Source: a virus
Strand: one strand, 5' to 3'
Virus record (IMG/VR): IMGVR_UViG_3300003873_000032
Location: 1 to 36,063 of that record
DNA: 36,063 bases
Position 1 is the first letter of the stretch. Every line of letters starts with the position of its first letter. The notes below the pieces were generated by a model that worked only from the letters and a program-made list of their open reading frames with translations, did not search any database and was not told the DNA's origin. Both the position numbers and the translations under genes were made by a program. Of this stretch, positions 2,080 to 34,997 are shown piece by piece.

Positions 2080-3461
2080 TAGGTTTCCTTGCTGAATAAC
2101 TTCTCGGCATACTCTGCGAAGTCAGAGCGTACCACTCGTTGGAGTGGCACTACATGTTTGTTGATAGTACCAGTGCTAGTAGCACAGTCGTTGAGTATTA
2201 CGCTGAGGCCATTAGTGAACTTGGTCATATTAGGGTTGTCTATTTGATTGTTAGACCCTACTAGGATGATCTTGCAGTTCTTACCGAAGCGTGTTAGCAC
2301 CTTTTGGAGGGAGGACTTAGACATACCTTGCACTTCATCAATGATGACTACGGTATCGGTGAAGGTACGACCCCTCATGCCAAGGCCTGTTAGGGCAGTG
2401 ATGTTGCAGTCGTCAACGATTTTCTCTATTTGCTCATCAATCTTGGCCTCTAACTCTTGGCCTTTAGCTTTGCCACCTTTGAACTTATTGCGAGCAATGA
2501 AGTCCAATGAGTCGTAGAGAGGATGGAAGTAGATAGAGTTCTTCTCCTCAACCGAACCAGGCAAAAAGCCCACTTCTTCAATAGCTTCAACATCATTGAT
2601 AGATGCCCTGATGTACAGGATGGAGTTATATGGTGACTTAGATTTTACTAGACGTATAGCGTTGGAGAGGGATACAAGAGTTTTACCAGAACCTGCTAAA
2701 GCCTCACATATTATTAAGTCCATTGTAGGATCTTGAATAGCGCGAGAGAGTAGTAGTTGGTCACCGTTAGAGGGGTTGACATCTTGACGACGTAACTCTT
2801 GCTCAGTGTCTTTACCGAGGATGTTGATGACCTCATTATTTATAGAAGCTAACTTAACTTGACTGGAGACTGGAGTCATAAATTTATAGTTGTAGTGTTC
2901 TATAGTGTGGTCAGGATCAACCTCTATTATTGAGCGGTTATGGAGAGTACGGAAAGTGCCCTCAGATACCTCTAGGCATTTAGTGAACTCGTAGTCGACC
3001 TTGTCTACAACTTTGAAGTCACTGACTTCTAAGCCAAAGGACTCAGCACGAATACGACACATTACATCGTTAGAGATGAAGGTAACTGGACGGTAGTCAC
3101 ATGCTTGTAGTTGTAGGGCTACCTCGATGATTTTGCGATCATTGAGGATATTTGGAGCTACATCAGATAGGTCTGGGTATTGCTTGACAGCAATGATCCA
3201 GATATGGGTGTACTCTACCTCGAACTTAGTTATTACTAGGTTCTCTTCCACTGTGCGACCAAGAGGCTTAGCATTAGCTATCATACGGCCAAAAGAACGT
3301 GCCTGGTAGGCAAGTTCACCTAGGCCAGACTTTTTACTGTCAAGCTCATCTATGACGGTCTCAGCTATGCATACGATGGTGTCGTCACCTCCTAGGGAGA
3401 TGAGGTTGTTTACATCGAGTAGTGGGATGTTAGTGTCTACACATAGGTATTGTAAAGACAT
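2079..3461 (-). CDS. phoH: PhoH-like ATPase with N-terminal PIN domain
   Basis: The 460-aa product joins a PIN nuclease-like domain (about 1-150) to a PhoH ATPase domain (about 215-455), the PhoH2-type layout. PIN acidic residues are visible as CVDTN (7-11) and VIDELDSKKSG (37-46). The ATPase has Walker A ALAGSGKT near 254-261, Walker B VVIIDEVQGMS, and a sensor-like IILVGSNNQIDN. Cellular PIN-PhoH proteins unwind and cut RNA. Phage PhoH is common in marine phages, though its role there is unproven. The gene overlaps ClpP upstream (TAATG) with AAAGG as SD. Confidence 0.9.
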   Translation of the reverse strand: MSLQYLCVDTNIPLLDVNNLISLGGDDTIVCIAETVIDELDSKKSGLGELAYQARSFGRMIANAKPLGRTVEENLVITKFEVEYTHIWIIAVKQYPDLSDVAPNILNDRKIIEVALQLQACDYRPVTFISNDVMCRIRAESFGLEVSDFKVVDKVDYEFTKCLEVSEGTFRTLHNRSIIEVDPDHTIEHYNYKFMTPVSSQVKLASINNEVINILGKDTEQELRRQDVNPSNGDQLLLSRAIQDPTMDLIICEALAGSGKTLVSLSNAIRLVKSKSPYNSILYIRASINDVEAIEEVGFLPGSVEEKNSIYFHPLYDSLDFIARNKFKGGKAKGQELEAKIDEQIEKIVDDCNITALTGLGMRGRTFTDTVVIIDEVQGMSKSSLQKVLTRFGKNCKIILVGSNNQIDNPNMTKFTNGLSVILNDCATSTGTINKHVVPLQRVVRSDFAEYAEKLFSKET

Positions 3462-9577: not shown

Positions 9578-9751
9578 TTAGGCTTTGTCAGCAGCTACTA
9601 ATGCAGCTCTTGTTGGAGTAACAAGCTTCTTGATTTCACCAAGTGATTTACGGATACGACCTGAAGTTGCTTTAGTTTGCTTTTGCTCGTAGCTATTGAT
9701 TTCAGCTAGTGCTGTTTCTAAGTGTTGTTTAATTGTGTTTAATTCTTGCAT
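9578..9751 (-). CDS. histone H1-like small basic protein (57 aa)
   Basis: The product MQELNTIKQHLETALAEI..., 57 aa, has a helical first half. Its second half, TSGRIRKSLGEIKKLVTPTR, follows the R-x-R-K-x-x-x-E-I-K-K-L-x-x-x-x-R pattern of bacterial histone H1-like (Hc1-type) proteins, also seen in phages. The expected role is DNA or RNA binding and compaction. The SD AAAGGAACACA is strong. It follows immediately after the structured noncoding block and its terminal stem, so the RNA block and this gene may share a transcript or be separated by that stem. Confidence 0.55.
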   Translation of the reverse strand: MQELNTIKQHLETALAEINSYEQKQTKATSGRIRKSLGEIKKLVTPTRAALVAADKA

Positions 9752-10221
9752 TGTGTTCCTTTTAATTAAAAGCTCAACGTAGCCAGACGGTATAATACCT
9801 ACTGGAAGAGGTTGAGCGTTGGTGCTATACTAGACTAAAAACTAGTACTGGTTTATGGTTGTTGCCTAATCACCATAGTAGTATCAGTAGCTATGACTGA
9901 ATCCTCCATAAGAGAGCTGCTATGATGCCTAAGGTACACGTCCTGAACGAACTCCAATAGTCTTTAATACCTAACCCCTGTCCCACTGGAGGTTAGATTT
10001 TGATAAGGGACTGCCATAATATAACGGATTGATACTACTCATTACTGACGCATTAGTCCTCGTCTATGGTTGCTCTACAATGGGCATTTGATTTTTAAAC
10101 CCTCTACTGGGGTAGCACATTACTGTGTTCAAATGGAGTCCACTACATCGGTGCAAACCTGCCCGCTGTGACACTTAGTAGTATATTACCTCAGAGTTTT
10201 TAGACTTCAGTGGACTGGTCT
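9752..10221 (-). ncRNA. 470-nt gene-free block with strong RNA structure (candidate noncoding RNA R1)
   Basis: No open frame with an SD is seen here, but several helices fit one minus-strand RNA. 10138-10144 pairs with 10209-10215. A three-way junction is closed by 10085-10091/10129-10135 and holds a hairpin at 10099-10113 and one at 10116-10127 with a GUAA (GNRA) loop. 9971-9978/9989-9996 is an 8-bp stem that needs a G-U pair only on the minus strand. A long terminal stem closes 9772-9817. No group I intron core or tRNA is seen. The class is unknown. Confidence 0.55.
9768..9817 (-). terminator. terminal stem-loop with short U-run, end of candidate RNA R1
   Basis: GCTCAAC (9817-9811) pairs with GTTGAGC (9778-9772), with an inner CCAG/CTGG and GGTA/TACC stem stacked inside. 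TTTT then follows, and AATTAAA. This is an intrinsic-terminator-like layout, though the U-run is short and the stem is interrupted. It could equally be the 3' structural domain of the RNA. Confidence 0.4.
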
Positions 10222-10305
10222 TTAGCCTCTAATTTGAGGAAGGGTGAAGATGCCTGCTAGGGTTAGTACTATGTAGATAGTTACACCTATTAAGATGTCT
10301 AGCAT
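10222..10305 (-). CDS. putative 27-aa single-span membrane peptide
   Basis: A 27-codon frame starting at ATG 10305 overlaps the stop of the DUF2158-like gene as TAATG, a junction used repeatedly in this genome. The peptide MLDILIGVTIYIVLTLAGIF... is almost wholly hydrophobic until a short TLPQIRG tail, as expected for one membrane span. The SD is weak (GAAG), so expression would depend on coupling. It could be chance, but the exact junction and the clean hydrophobicity favour a gene. Confidence 0.4.
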   Translation of the reverse strand: MLDILIGVTIYIVLTLAGIFTLPQIRG

Positions 10306-20403: not shown

Positions 20404-21360
20404 TTACACACCTGCTACAGGTGCTAATAGATTTTCTCTAGCTTCTTTAGATAGTAGGTTTTTACGGCCTCTGCTGAAGCTACCACAATCTGCACATTTG
20501 TACTGCTGGAATTTAGAGGCGTTAGTGAAGTAGTAACCATCTTCTGTTAAGTGAGATGAACCACATGTTGTACAACGCTTAGTTGTGCTACCAGAGCCTA
20601 CAACAATTGAAGTGTGGGGTTTAGCAAATGGCTTCATCTTCTCATAGATTTCTTCAGTTACTATTACATCCATTTTGTTGTAGGCTTTGTTCTCTGCCCA
20701 TGCTTCATCGTTGCCATGGAGCATTTCAATCCAGATAGTCATACCTGGAAAGTTTTTATGCTCTAATTTACGAGAGCAATTTAGTGACCTAGCAATCCAG
20801 TCAAGAGTGTTACGCTCAAATTTATAGTGGCGCTTAGCTATAGCTAGTGTGTCTATGATACGGTAAGGACTAACAGGTGGTAGGTTATTCATGATTAGAC
20901 GAGTGTTAACCATTGGTGTGTCAAATCGTTTCATATTGTGACCTACTACTATGTCTGCTTCGTTTAGTATTGTTGATAGCTCACCTAGGATATCCTTGTC
21001 ACAGTTGTTGCGATTTGCTCTGTAGTGGACCTTGTCTTCACCTAACCATTTGTAGGCGAAGGATAGGATTGTGATGTCGTCATCACGACGCATCGCATCA
21101 GAGATGTTTACCTGCCAGCGGTTGTAGCTGTAAGCTGTAAAGGGGCTAGTCTCTATGTCCATAACTAAGATACGTGCAGTAGGGTTAGCTACTGTTGATT
21201 TAGTTGGTGCTTTGTACTTCTTTAGGCGAGCTCTTAGTGTAGATGATGGTACTGAAAACATAGCTGCAATATCTACTATAGAGACACCTTCACTGCGTAG
21301 TTGTAGTATCTCGTCCCAATTGTTATTGAGTATCTTTTTAGTCTTTTTATGTGTTGTCAC
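20404..21360 (-). CDS. DEDD (DnaQ-like) 3'-5' exonuclease with HTH and zinc ribbon; separate proofreading subunit
   Basis: 318 aa, starting at GTG 21360 behind AAAGGA. Domains: HTH (about 10-50, VSIVDIAAMFSVPSSTLRARL); exonuclease core with ILVMDIETSP (D68, E70), IVVGHNMKRFDTP and AYNKMDVIVTEEIY (YxxxD); then a C-terminal zinc ribbon CTTCGSS ... YKCADCGSFSRG. In T7-like polymerases this exonuclease is fused to the polymerase. Here the polymerase gene is separate at 22.5-23.9 kb, so this is probably its proofreading partner. The HTH and zinc ribbon suggest independent DNA contact. Confidence 0.82.
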   Translation of the reverse strand: MTTHKKTKKILNNNWDEILQLRSEGVSIVDIAAMFSVPSSTLRARLKKYKAPTKSTVANPTARILVMDIETSPFTAYSYNRWQVNISDAMRRDDDITILSFAYKWLGEDKVHYRANRNNCDKDILGELSTILNEADIVVGHNMKRFDTPMVNTRLIMNNLPPVSPYRIIDTLAIAKRHYKFERNTLDWIARSLNCSRKLEHKNFPGMTIWIEMLHGNDEAWAENKAYNKMDVIVTEEIYEKMKPFAKPHTSIVVGSGSTTKRCTTCGSSHLTEDGYYFTNASKFQQYKCADCGSFSRGRKNLLSKEARENLLAPVAGV

Positions 21361-22432: not shown

Positions 22433-22547
22433 TAGTTGTCCTTAATGTAGGTAGCTTGTGTAACATGAGTTGTTTTGTTGTAGTAATTTCTCTAGTACGG
22501 AGTATAACACTATGACGTAGTATAATATGCATTTTATTATTAGACAT
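22419..22547 (-). CDS. putative basic small protein (42 aa)
   Basis: ATG 22547 overlaps the polymerase stop as TAATG. The frame MSNNKMHIILRHSVILRTRE... runs 42 codons and ends inside the next gene. It is basic (several Arg, Lys, His) with no family. The same bases also hold the SD of the downstream paralog, so part of the sequence is constrained for that reason. Support is the junction only. Confidence 0.35.
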   Translation of the reverse strand: MSNNKMHIILRHSVILRTREITTTKQLMLHKLPTLRTTNEPL

Positions 22548-23932
22548 TAGTGAGTTTCTGACCAATTGTTACCAATCAAATAATCTGCTTGTATTGATAA
22601 AGCCATATTAAATTGTTGTTGTATCATGTTGCACCCTCGTACCATTATATCACCAAGTTTCTCAGCATAATCTGTATCACACTGACATTGGAATTCATCA
22701 TGGACAAAAGCCATTTGTGACCATTTCTCACCATGAGGTAACCCTTCTTGAGATGCTAGTGTATGAAAGTTTAACATCCATTTTTTAGCTATTATACCTG
22801 CAGATCCTTGTAAAAGTAAGTTAAGTGCACTATGTGGTGACCGTGAATTAAGTTTACGACCATCAATTGCTGTAACAAATCCAGTATCTTTTGATTCTTT
22901 TTGACAGGCTTTAATAAGTTCTTTAATACCTACAACTTTCTCTAAGAAAGTATCTGATATACGCTTACCATAAATTGTTTGACGTATTAGTATTTCATCA
23001 TATAATACATAGGTATCTGGTTTTAATGGGAAATATTGCTTATCATCCATTATAATAATACGTCCCTCTACTCTCTTCTTAGCTTGTTTATATTCTTTGT
23101 CAGTGTAGTCATCTAGACATGTATCAGTCCAGAGTGTGTTACCACGTACAGTATCACCACTACCATACATCCAGGAAAAAAAGAAAGCTTTACTAGCACT
23201 TCTAGCAGCTTTCATTTCAGGAGTCCTGTCAGAGGCATGATTATCATCTGGCCAATCACGATCGTCTTTAGTCCAGAAACCTGCTAGCTTTGCATGATAC
23301 CAATGCATGTCTTTAGAAAGTACAGCCTTAGCATATAACCCATCATCATACTTTGATAGATAATGTGCAAGTGTACGAACCTCAATGTTTGCAAGGTCAG
23401 CACCAACTACAGCTCTACCAGGAGGTGCATTAAATAGTTTTCTAAACTCTTTAGCAGTTGGTACTTGTGCAAGATTTGGCTTTGAATGGGTTGCCCTATG
23501 GGTGTTAGCACCAATTAGGTCCACTTTATGGTGGATTGAGTGAGTATTCTCATTGTAGTTTTTTAAATAACCACCTTTTGTGTCATAACCTACAGTTCCC
23601 TGGTCCTTATATACACGAAGATACCTATGCAGTAGTTTACCAGCAGGATTGGTCATACCTGTTAATGAATCTGGGTCAACCTTTATACCACCATTTTTGG
23701 TGTAGAAAGGAAAAGTATAGCCATAATCTTCCTCCATCCATTTAATGATATGTTGTCGTGAACCAGGGTTAAAAGGTACATACTTGATTGGCTGATGTTG
23801 ACCACTACGAGTTACAATGATTGTCCTCATGGGTGAGGAGAACCATTTGATGGACCTCTTACCTGGGGGCTTGTAGCTGCCATTTTTGAGGTAGCGACCG
23901 TAGGGTATCTTGTAAGGTGTTAGGTTGTTCAT
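22547..23932 (-). CDS. family A DNA polymerase, T7-type polymerase domain without exonuclease
   Basis: 461 aa. YVPFNPGSRQHI, THRATHSKPNLAQVP, motif A AVVGADLANIEVRTLAHY (D179), fingers KAFFFSWMYGSGD (motif B region), IDGRKLNSRSPHSALNLLLQ and motif C FVHDEFQCQ follow T7 gp5 closely through to the GNNWSETH C-terminus. Motif A has Leu-Ala in place of the usual Ser/Tyr-Ser. The first 50 residues are basic and do not contain an exonuclease or an obvious full thumb. The SD GGAGG is excellent. It replicates phage DNA, probably with the separate exonuclease. Confidence 0.88.
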   Translation of the reverse strand: MNNLTPYKIPYGRYLKNGSYKPPGKRSIKWFSSPMRTIIVTRSGQHQPIKYVPFNPGSRQHIIKWMEEDYGYTFPFYTKNGGIKVDPDSLTGMTNPAGKLLHRYLRVYKDQGTVGYDTKGGYLKNYNENTHSIHHKVDLIGANTHRATHSKPNLAQVPTAKEFRKLFNAPPGRAVVGADLANIEVRTLAHYLSKYDDGLYAKAVLSKDMHWYHAKLAGFWTKDDRDWPDDNHASDRTPEMKAARSASKAFFFSWMYGSGDTVRGNTLWTDTCLDDYTDKEYKQAKKRVEGRIIIMDDKQYFPLKPDTYVLYDEILIRQTIYGKRISDTFLEKVVGIKELIKACQKESKDTGFVTAIDGRKLNSRSPHSALNLLLQGSAGIIAKKWMLNFHTLASQEGLPHGEKWSQMAFVHDEFQCQCDTDYAEKLGDIMVRGCNMIQQQFNMALSIQADYLIGNNWSETH

Positions 23933-28773: not shown

Positions 28774-29863
28774 CGTTTATATTCAGCAGTAGTCGTTAAT
28801 TACTGCCCGCACCATTATGTGCAGCTACGTGTCTCCACGTAGACTAGACTATATCTTAATCTTTATTTATTTAACTTTCTAGAACAAGGTAGGCAATACT
28901 GAATTGCCCCTTCTAGAGATCTTCTCATAGTTTGTGACCAAGGACTACTAATCTCTTGTAAACAATTATTACATGTGTACACACCAAACCACTTATACTT
29001 AGGTTCACCACCTATAGTAAGTAATTTATATTGCACACCAATTATTGTTCGTCCACCAATGTCTTCACCAATATGAGTCATGAGTTGTTCAAAAGTATTA
29101 GTTTGAGTAGTTTTCTTACTAGCCTTTATACTTTTAGCTCTGACATTCAGATCTTGATTATCTGCTGAATGTTGCATATTTTCTTGGTGTGTTACCCATT
29201 CAAGATTCTCAACAGTATTATTAGTACCATCTTTATCTTTATGGTTGACAAAAGGTTTATTATCAGGATTAGGCAAAAAAGCTTCAGCAACTAGTCTGTG
29301 CATATGTACAGTATAATTAGTACCATCATTAGATAATGAGGCCTTTATGTATGTTGTATGCATTTGCTTATGGTAGCTGCCTGAGCGTATTTTAGTACCA
29401 CTTTTTGTTGTCACACGTAGATTACCCTTGTTTGACACCTCGTAACGAGGTCCATACTTAGGGTCTACAGGTTTGAAAATTTCTTCATTTTTCATTATAC
29501 TTCCTTAAATTAGATAAGTAAGTATACCAAAAAATCTCTTAAAGTTATATAAAGATTTCCCCCATTTCCACTCCACTAGAAGTGTACGAGCATGATGCTC
29601 TAGTCGTTGAACCTTCTCCTGGTTACGGAGCTTGGCTGCTGATTGCCTCTATTACCTACTTTTCAAACCGTCAACATCTGCTTTCGCGATGCTTGTGGTG
29701 TAGATACTTAACAAGGGTTCCCAGCAATTAAAGGGATGCAAAACACACATCACTGTGTGTAAGGGCTGTAACATTACCACACTACAGCCTAATACTTTCA
29801 CTACTATCATTTGTTTATTCTCATCATAGTGTTGGTACTAGGTGTAAATGTGGTATGTTGTTA
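28774..29863 (-). mobile_element. group I intron (about 1,090 nt) inside the MoxR ATPase gene
   Basis: Exon 1 ends in U (GTGGT) and the intron ends in G (AAACG), the group I rule; removal restores ...ENLSG-IPDF... in frame. ACCAC at 29854-29850 can pair with the exon end as P1. Core signatures on the minus strand are AATTGCTGGGAACCC (about 29729-29715), GGCAATCAGCAGCCAAGC (29647-29630), GAAGGTTCAACGACTA (P7 5' side, about 29616-29601) and AAGATATAGTC (P7 3' side, near 28857-28847). A 7-bp P9-like hairpin with GAGA loop is at 28825-28842. An HNH gene lies in the P8 region. Exact boundaries are inferred. Confidence 0.8.
28863..29495 (-). CDS. intron-encoded HNH homing endonuclease (NUMOD4-HNH type)
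   Basis: 210 aa. The N-terminus (EIFKPVDPKYGPRYEVSNKG) is NUMOD4-like. The HNH_3 core follows: VHMHRLVAEAFLPNP, PFVNHKDKDGTNNTVENLEWVT, with the H, N and H/N residues. The C-terminus holds a zinc ribbon (YTCNNCLQE ... QYCLPCSRKLNK). It is encoded inside a group I intron and probably cuts intronless MoxR genes to spread the intron. The SD AAGGAAGTATA is strong, so it is translated from the precursor or excised intron. Confidence 0.82.
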   Translation of the reverse strand: MKNEEIFKPVDPKYGPRYEVSNKGNLRVTTKSGTKIRSGSYHKQMHTTYIKASLSNDGTNYTVHMHRLVAEAFLPNPDNKPFVNHKDKDGTNNTVENLEWVTHQENMQHSADNQDLNVRAKSIKASKKTTQTNTFEQLMTHIGEDIGGRTIIGVQYKLLTIGGEPKYKWFGVYTCNNCLQEISSPWSQTMRRSLEGAIQYCLPCSRKLNK

Positions 29864-34237: not shown

Positions 34238-34557
34238 TATGAGACTCCCAAGTTGGTAACTTGGGCTACATACGTAGTTGTTCAACAACTATCTCGATGT
34301 ATCGGATTTAAAGTGTAGTTTATATTCTATATAACTACCAAGGTATCCAACATTTCACGTAGTTGTTGGCTTAACGAGCATTGCTGTCATAATGCTAGAG
34401 AACTTAACCGTGAAGGTTAAGATTTTAGAGGTGGTAAGACTCCAAATAGCATACCATCACTATTGCTAGCTTCCTATCACCTTTTCTAGAATTTGTAAGG
34501 TGCAAGTCTTGTGGGCTGTGATGTACCTTCGAAGTATGCTCTTTGGAATTTTACAGA

Positions 34558-34632
34558 CCGGCACCAAGGAATCTAACCTTGCCATATAGCTTTTACACGT
34601 GCTATTACTATAGTGGTTACACTACATGCCGG
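34558..34632 (-). ncRNA. tRNA-like cloverleaf with 10-nt anticodon-position loop
   Basis: The acceptor-like stem is CCGGCAT/GTGCCGG (34626-34632 with 34558-34564, last pair T-G). The D-position hairpin is at 34612-34623 (4 bp, 4-nt loop). The anticodon-position hairpin is at 34586-34605 (5 bp perfect, 10-nt loop). The T-arm at 34565-34581 has a perfect 5-bp stem and loop TTAGATT, which keeps the U-x-R-A T-loop pattern. The long loop and six-base linker are wrong for a decoding tRNA. It may be a domain of R2 or a decayed tRNA. Confidence 0.45.
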
Positions 34633-34997
34633 ATATAAATGGGGGCACTTGTTGGTAACCCAGTAGTACAAAACTGGAGGAACTTTTAGAGTCTATAACC
34701 AAATGACTACCCCGTTTGTATCAACGCTAGTGAGGTTATCTATCGTGTACATTATTAACGTCCAGTATGCACAATTGGACTTATAGTGACCAATAACTTA
34801 GGTCGTAGCTTCATGTAGATTTTATAGTCTCTTATGACTTGTAGAGCTTAGTGCGATAACTATGTCACCATAGTTAAAGGGTTCTCGTTGTTGTCCCACT
34901 CTACATGAGTAATTTACCTTACAGGGTCCATTCACGATGCTTGCAGCATCTAATGGCTCTTAGTCTCGTCTAGCTGCAAGCAGTCCTAAGCCGTTGT

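Follow-up and report, generated by a model that had tools for sequence, protein, structure and literature searches.

A block of phage DNA that carries no gene (nucleotides 9752–10221 of a 36-kb virus record, the whole 36,063 nt of which are called the window here) is a row of small, independent structured elements, non-coding and lying on the minus strand. One of these, element D, belongs to a new RNA family of about 110 nt with a pseudoknot, and both the family and its link to the endoribonuclease-fold domain PBECR3 of Campylobacterales are well supported. With roughly even confidence, we propose that D is an antitoxin-like RNA inhibitor of PBECR3-type nucleases, and that the phage block may combine several orphan RNAs, inhibitors or mimics, in modular fashion.

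The block was considered gene-free in the first-pass annotation, and the longest ORF in any of its frames indeed does not exceed 36 aa. Its failure to find a group I core, tRNA or tmRNA there also stands: tRNA and tmRNA searches of 9752–10221 were negative, and the sole match of the Intron_gpI covariance model in the window is at 29457–29795. Rfam named no family in the block even at E≤10, the only two hits around it being weak and outside its limits, and a DNA similarity search of the block against the phage collection gave no matches. Folding of the minus strand was no better than that of shuffled sequences (z = −0.17, with 39 of 100 shuffles equally good), and the plus strand gave z = −1.5. 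As single-sequence folding was uninformative, the verdict on the proposed stems had to rest on relatives.

Contigs of related phages, the largest of 102–118 kb, were retrieved through two genes near the block, those for RNA ligase and ribonucleotide reductase. Five related phages have a non-coding block at the same place, in which short islands of high identity alternate with variable DNA, and pattern searches with the best island recovered more phages and one Campylobacterales metagenome-assembled genome. These comparisons bear out a structured non-coding RNA on the minus strand: pairs covary among relatives and no conserved coding frame runs through the block, the two points on which an RNA could have been contradicted. 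They also replace the single coherent RNA of about 440 nt originally envisaged by separate elements that have been gained and lost among relatives. The strongest of them, D, was absent from that first description.

Features in and around the gene-free block of the window
Feature	Position	Strand	Sequence or pairing	Basis
Hc1 (histone H1-like) gene, downstream of block	9578–9751	minus	57 aa	PF07432, E=1.3e-5, over cut-off
Gene-free block	9752–10221	minus	no ORF >36 aa	relatives with non-coding block at equivalent place
Terminator-like stacked stem	9768–9817	minus	followed by UUUU	MFE −18.8 kcal/mol; window only
Element D, member of new RNA family linked elsewhere to PBECR3	9825–9975	minus		cmsearch model R1, E=3.6e-11 (rough), 55.3 bits
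D hairpin P4	9828–9847	minus	UACUAG-UUUUUAGU-CUAGUA	38-sequence alignment
D hairpin P2a	9940–9952	minus	GUUC-GUUCA-GGAC	38-sequence alignment, U-G pairs conserved
D helix P2	9954–9956 with 9856–9858	minus	UGG/CCA	CGG/CCG in most relatives
D pseudoknot, 5' arm	9958–9961	minus	ACUA, pairs with UAGU 9834–9837 in P4 loop	
Element B, H-type pseudoknot	9969–10011	minus	GUCCC/GGGAC interleaved with AUCUAACC/GGUUAGGU	three sequences by eye
Element C	10033–10183	minus	closing helix 10177–10183 (UACUACU)/10033–10039 (AGUAGUA)	
Element C inner hairpin	10047–10064	minus	GACG..CGUC	
Three-way junction with GUAA loop	10085–10135	minus		inside window-only insert of element C
Element A, 5' leader hairpin	10202–10221	minus	AGAC-CAGUCCACUGAA-GUCU	sequence conserved in L007, L004
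27-aa ORF flanking block	10222–10305			

Element D was recognised with a covariance model (R1) built from nine sequences with the window left out, one of which (L005) entered with a long insert excised; its E-values are rough, as the calibration was short. The model has 38 members in total, and Rfam 15, searched at gathering and at permissive limits with the block and its relatives, has no family for D. In the alignment of the 38 sequences, two-sided changes occur at 21 of 26 pairs and in 153 cells, where shuffles give 43.6; kinship among the sequences inflates such counts, and the alignment is fitted to the model. Nevertheless, pairing extends to 87.6% of cells and drops to 33–48% when the partner is slid, so that, with these controls and the many pair types seen, the fold is hardly in doubt. 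P2 has 99.1% of its cells paired and all three pairs covarying, P4 97.3% and five of seven pairs covarying. The pseudoknot, compared by eye, covaries as well: most relatives have ACCA/UGGU, whereas the window has ACUA/UAGU, L068, L074 and L077 have ACCG/CGGU, and L075 has CCCA/GGGU. The window's copy of D carries compensatory changes of its own, and when folded alone it recovers P2, P2a and P4 as in the consensus.

The strand of D is indicated by the excess of G-U over A-C cells in P2a (30:7) and P4 (17:1), which supports the RNA strand. P3, which is poorly aligned, goes in the opposite direction (13:25), mostly through mismatches of all kinds, and the count over all helices with one conserved pair excluded is weak (43:34), so the strand is argued from P2a, P4 and the promoters. 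Matches to sigma-70 of at least 10 of 12 positions lie upstream of D on the RNA strand at 18 of 31 loci, versus two on the opposite strand, and the expected start of these promoter-like sequences is close to the 5' end of the core. That such stems arose by chance in intergenic sequence, with no functional RNA behind them, would suit the shuffle result of the single sequence, but is scarcely credible given the covariation in 38 sequences and the independent detection of D in the window, and for D it is already contradicted.

Elements B and C of the window were delimited and paired by our own reading of few sequences, as were E and F in the relatives. A stem at 9971–9996 had been described in the first-pass annotation and does exist, although it is actually the second helix of an H-type pseudoknot (element B) that had been overlooked; by eye, this helix shows compensatory changes in L007 and L004, and the first helix in L004. 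The closing helix of element C has five of seven pairs changed on both sides in five phages, window included, its arms having been picked by hand ahead of the counting. The window's copy of C holds a large insert, and the three-way junction reported there, while it can be drawn, is missing from the copies in L004, L005, L008 and L019 and finds no comparative support. Likewise, the long-range helix 10138–10144/10209–10215 can be drawn at its coordinates but is not conserved in relatives. The stacked stem ahead of UUUU, taken as the terminal structure, is a plausible terminator.

Outside this phage group, D was found in 23 of 399 Campylobacterales genomes. The single scan of genome contigs used an exact motif, which diverged members would escape. 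D occurs in prophages and on plasmids, among the latter those of Arcobacter cloacae and Sulfurospirillum diekertiae. Judged solely from where D occurs, the phage may have a Campylobacterota host. Downstream of D in Campylobacterales lies a convergent gene of about 135 aa with a PBECR3 endoribonuclease-fold domain, whose stop codon is about 10 nt or less from the 3' end of the D core; of the 23 genomes with D, at least 14 have a convergent PBECR3 match that ends at the boundary of the RNA. Two partner proteins score 33.4 and 30.8 bits against PF18812 (cut-off 30). The partner nuclease has invariant H59, H64 and T129, with the two histidines and a C-terminal Lys-Thr conserved, and its His and Thr residues agree with the BECR active-site pattern given by Iyer and colleagues (PMC5512222), for whom PBECR domains are predicted RNases of phages and conjugative elements. 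The AlphaFold2 prediction for the nuclease has a mean pLDDT of 45, too low to base a fold search on. A match of GajA to a PBECR3 protein (15.9 bits over 41 residues) was set aside as spurious.

Of the 30 D loci that lie beyond the phage group of the window, 19 have a full PBECR3 domain (within a longer ORF in L062, L070, L071 and L073), six a remnant and five none, and D is retained where the nuclease is truncated, broken or lost (L030, L031, L066, L069, L072 and L079). Many Campylobacterales PBECR3 domains, for their part, occur without a D RNA. In the four loci with a longer ORF, D lies antisense inside it, the ORF running beyond the RNA in the frames read. Two loci, L067 and L069, share the genes flanking D while PBECR3 is present in one genome only, as if the nuclease had been acquired or lost next to an RNA that stayed. 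Among phages of the window's group, 15 records, several of them fragmentary, yielded no PBECR3 match.

The phage blocks themselves differ in content, with the subset of elements varying from phage to phage. Element E, consisting of two stems, has 11 of 15 pairs changed on both sides in five phages, and its model has no match in the window; element F was found in two phages. Inside the RNA block of L007, a tRNA-like T-arm is followed directly by a D-arm (3130–3230), pieces of which (3147–3230) match the bacterial Y RNA YrlA (RF02553) with E=0.0043 and 25.1 bits, far under the gathering score of 69; the window has no such element. Neither C, sought in 399 Campylobacterales genomes, nor E, sought in 249, was found there, so these searches gave no toxin partner, and the viral contigs held only the known members of C. 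A Cetobacterium plasmid matches L005 (E=0.01) at a site with type I restriction genes on either side, and we have not counted this as evidence.

An RNase-fold neighbour, a compact pseudoknot, persistence after decay of the nuclease and orphan copies in phages together fit an RNA antidote. On this basis, the bacterial D RNA would most likely bind and neutralise the PBECR3 nuclease, as type III RNA antitoxins do with their toxins. The phage block is a cassette of separate small folded RNAs in the replication region, and its element D is a copy of an RNA that lies tail-to-tail with a PBECR3 gene in Campylobacterales, on chromosomes, in prophages and on plasmids. In the phage, which has no detectable nuclease, this copy may act as an orphan antidote or decoy that stops a resident PBECR3 from blocking infection. 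Its neighbours (B and C in the window; E, F and the tRNA- or Y-RNA-like element in relatives) might play the same role against other RNA-binding or RNA-cutting proteins.

D shares with the RNAs of type III systems (ToxI, CptI and TenpI, and also the AvcI and AbiF RNAs) a compact pseudoknot, here with covarying helices, beside a small endoribonuclease-type gene, and an occurrence in both mobile elements and chromosomes. In type III systems, however, the antitoxin precedes its toxin in the same orientation and usually forms tandem repeats, whereas D is single-copy and convergent, and its partner in the bacterial loci is a predicted nuclease and putative toxin of the BECR type, PBECR3, instead of ToxN, with none found in the window's phages. 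The Rfam ToxI model (RF02519) has no match in the window, L003, L005, L008 or L030 at the limits used, and in L019 it reaches chance level (E=6.3, 15 bits vs a cut-off of 50). Because the gene arrangement differs and neutralisation is what we infer from the loci, we have not filed D/PBECR3 as type III. A parallel for the phage copy is phage phiTE, which carries and expands a pseudo-ToxI RNA and thereby defeats ToxIN (PMC3475682): in both cases a bacterial antitoxin-like RNA is phage-borne without its toxin. D belongs to another RNA family and is joined with several other structured elements. As to the protein, the PBECR domains of polyvalent proteins have been described in PMC5512222; the partner of D is PBECR3 (PF18812), either solo or in long ORFs of mobile elements, and the available portion of that account describes no attached RNA gene, unlike the D loci.

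The same adjacency and co-occurrence would suit an RNA-protein partnership of either sign. D could activate or direct PBECR3, whether as its cofactor, its guide or the substrate it prefers, and phages could carry it to misdirect or hijack the host nuclease, and as a compact single-copy pseudoknot it is indeed unlike the repeats of most type III systems. We think this unlikely, as it would be odd for a mere cofactor to persist beside truncated nucleases, after their loss, and in phages in which none was detected.

Equally, the elements could be structural or selfish RNAs of an unrelated role, in the manner of ornate phage RNAs, or remnants that HNH homing endonucleases nearby have spread. In L010 and L033 an HNH gene immediately precedes the block, and some large phage RNAs, GOLLD for example, are not known to have a clear role. 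The probability of this is low too: no large-RNA family of Rfam is matched, and in bacteria D tracks PBECR3.

In the window and several relatives the block directly precedes an Hc1-like gene of the same orientation, a position also expected of a cis-acting leader that controls the Hc1 and NrdA genes downstream, its likeness to the bacterial RNA reflecting a shared regulatory fold. Yet a different gene follows in L019, another gene intervenes in L028, the RNA of L020 is in a different neighbourhood, and bacterial D adjoins quite different genes. Furthermore, L085, L089 and L090 have the Hc1 gene with the block entirely absent. This last fact and the varying subsets of elements favour accessory trans-acting elements, and make a leader rather improbable.

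Finally, the convergence of D with a gene that stops so near the 3' end of its core is what a type I-like system would present, in which bacterial D would be chiefly an antisense transcript limiting expression of the nuclease mRNA. The conserved part is nevertheless a compact fold almost wholly outside the gene, and phages retain D without the gene, which renders an antisense role quite improbable.

The inhibitor reading, if right, would mean a new protein-RNA toxin-antitoxin arrangement with a BECR-fold nuclease, a possible RNA partner for PBECR3, itself a widespread predicted toxin domain, and phages that carry changing sets of RNA antidotes. More tentatively, and less probably than not, large phages may be equipped with orphan RNA inhibitors in modular arrays, each directed against a different RNA-acting toxin or defence protein of the host, one of which would mimic the RNA half of an undescribed convergent PBECR3 nuclease-RNA system of Campylobacterota.

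Elsewhere in the window there is a second gene-free stretch on the minus strand (34239–34997, 759 nt), probably the other of the two large RNAs proposed in the first-pass annotation, where it was labelled R1. The likeness between the two that had been raised there was not found, since at BLAST level the block resembles nothing else in the window, where the D model matches D only and the E model has no match. Approximately the first 107 nt of this stretch are 76% identical to G003:891–997, the remainder being without a convincing match in the phages searched. The group I intron match, also on the minus strand, scores 50.2 bits (gathering 50) and overlaps the end of an HNH-like ORF (28863–29495). 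The DNA polymerase appears to be split on the minus strand into exonuclease (phrog_403) and polymerase genes (20404–21360 and 22547–23932), with other ORFs between them.
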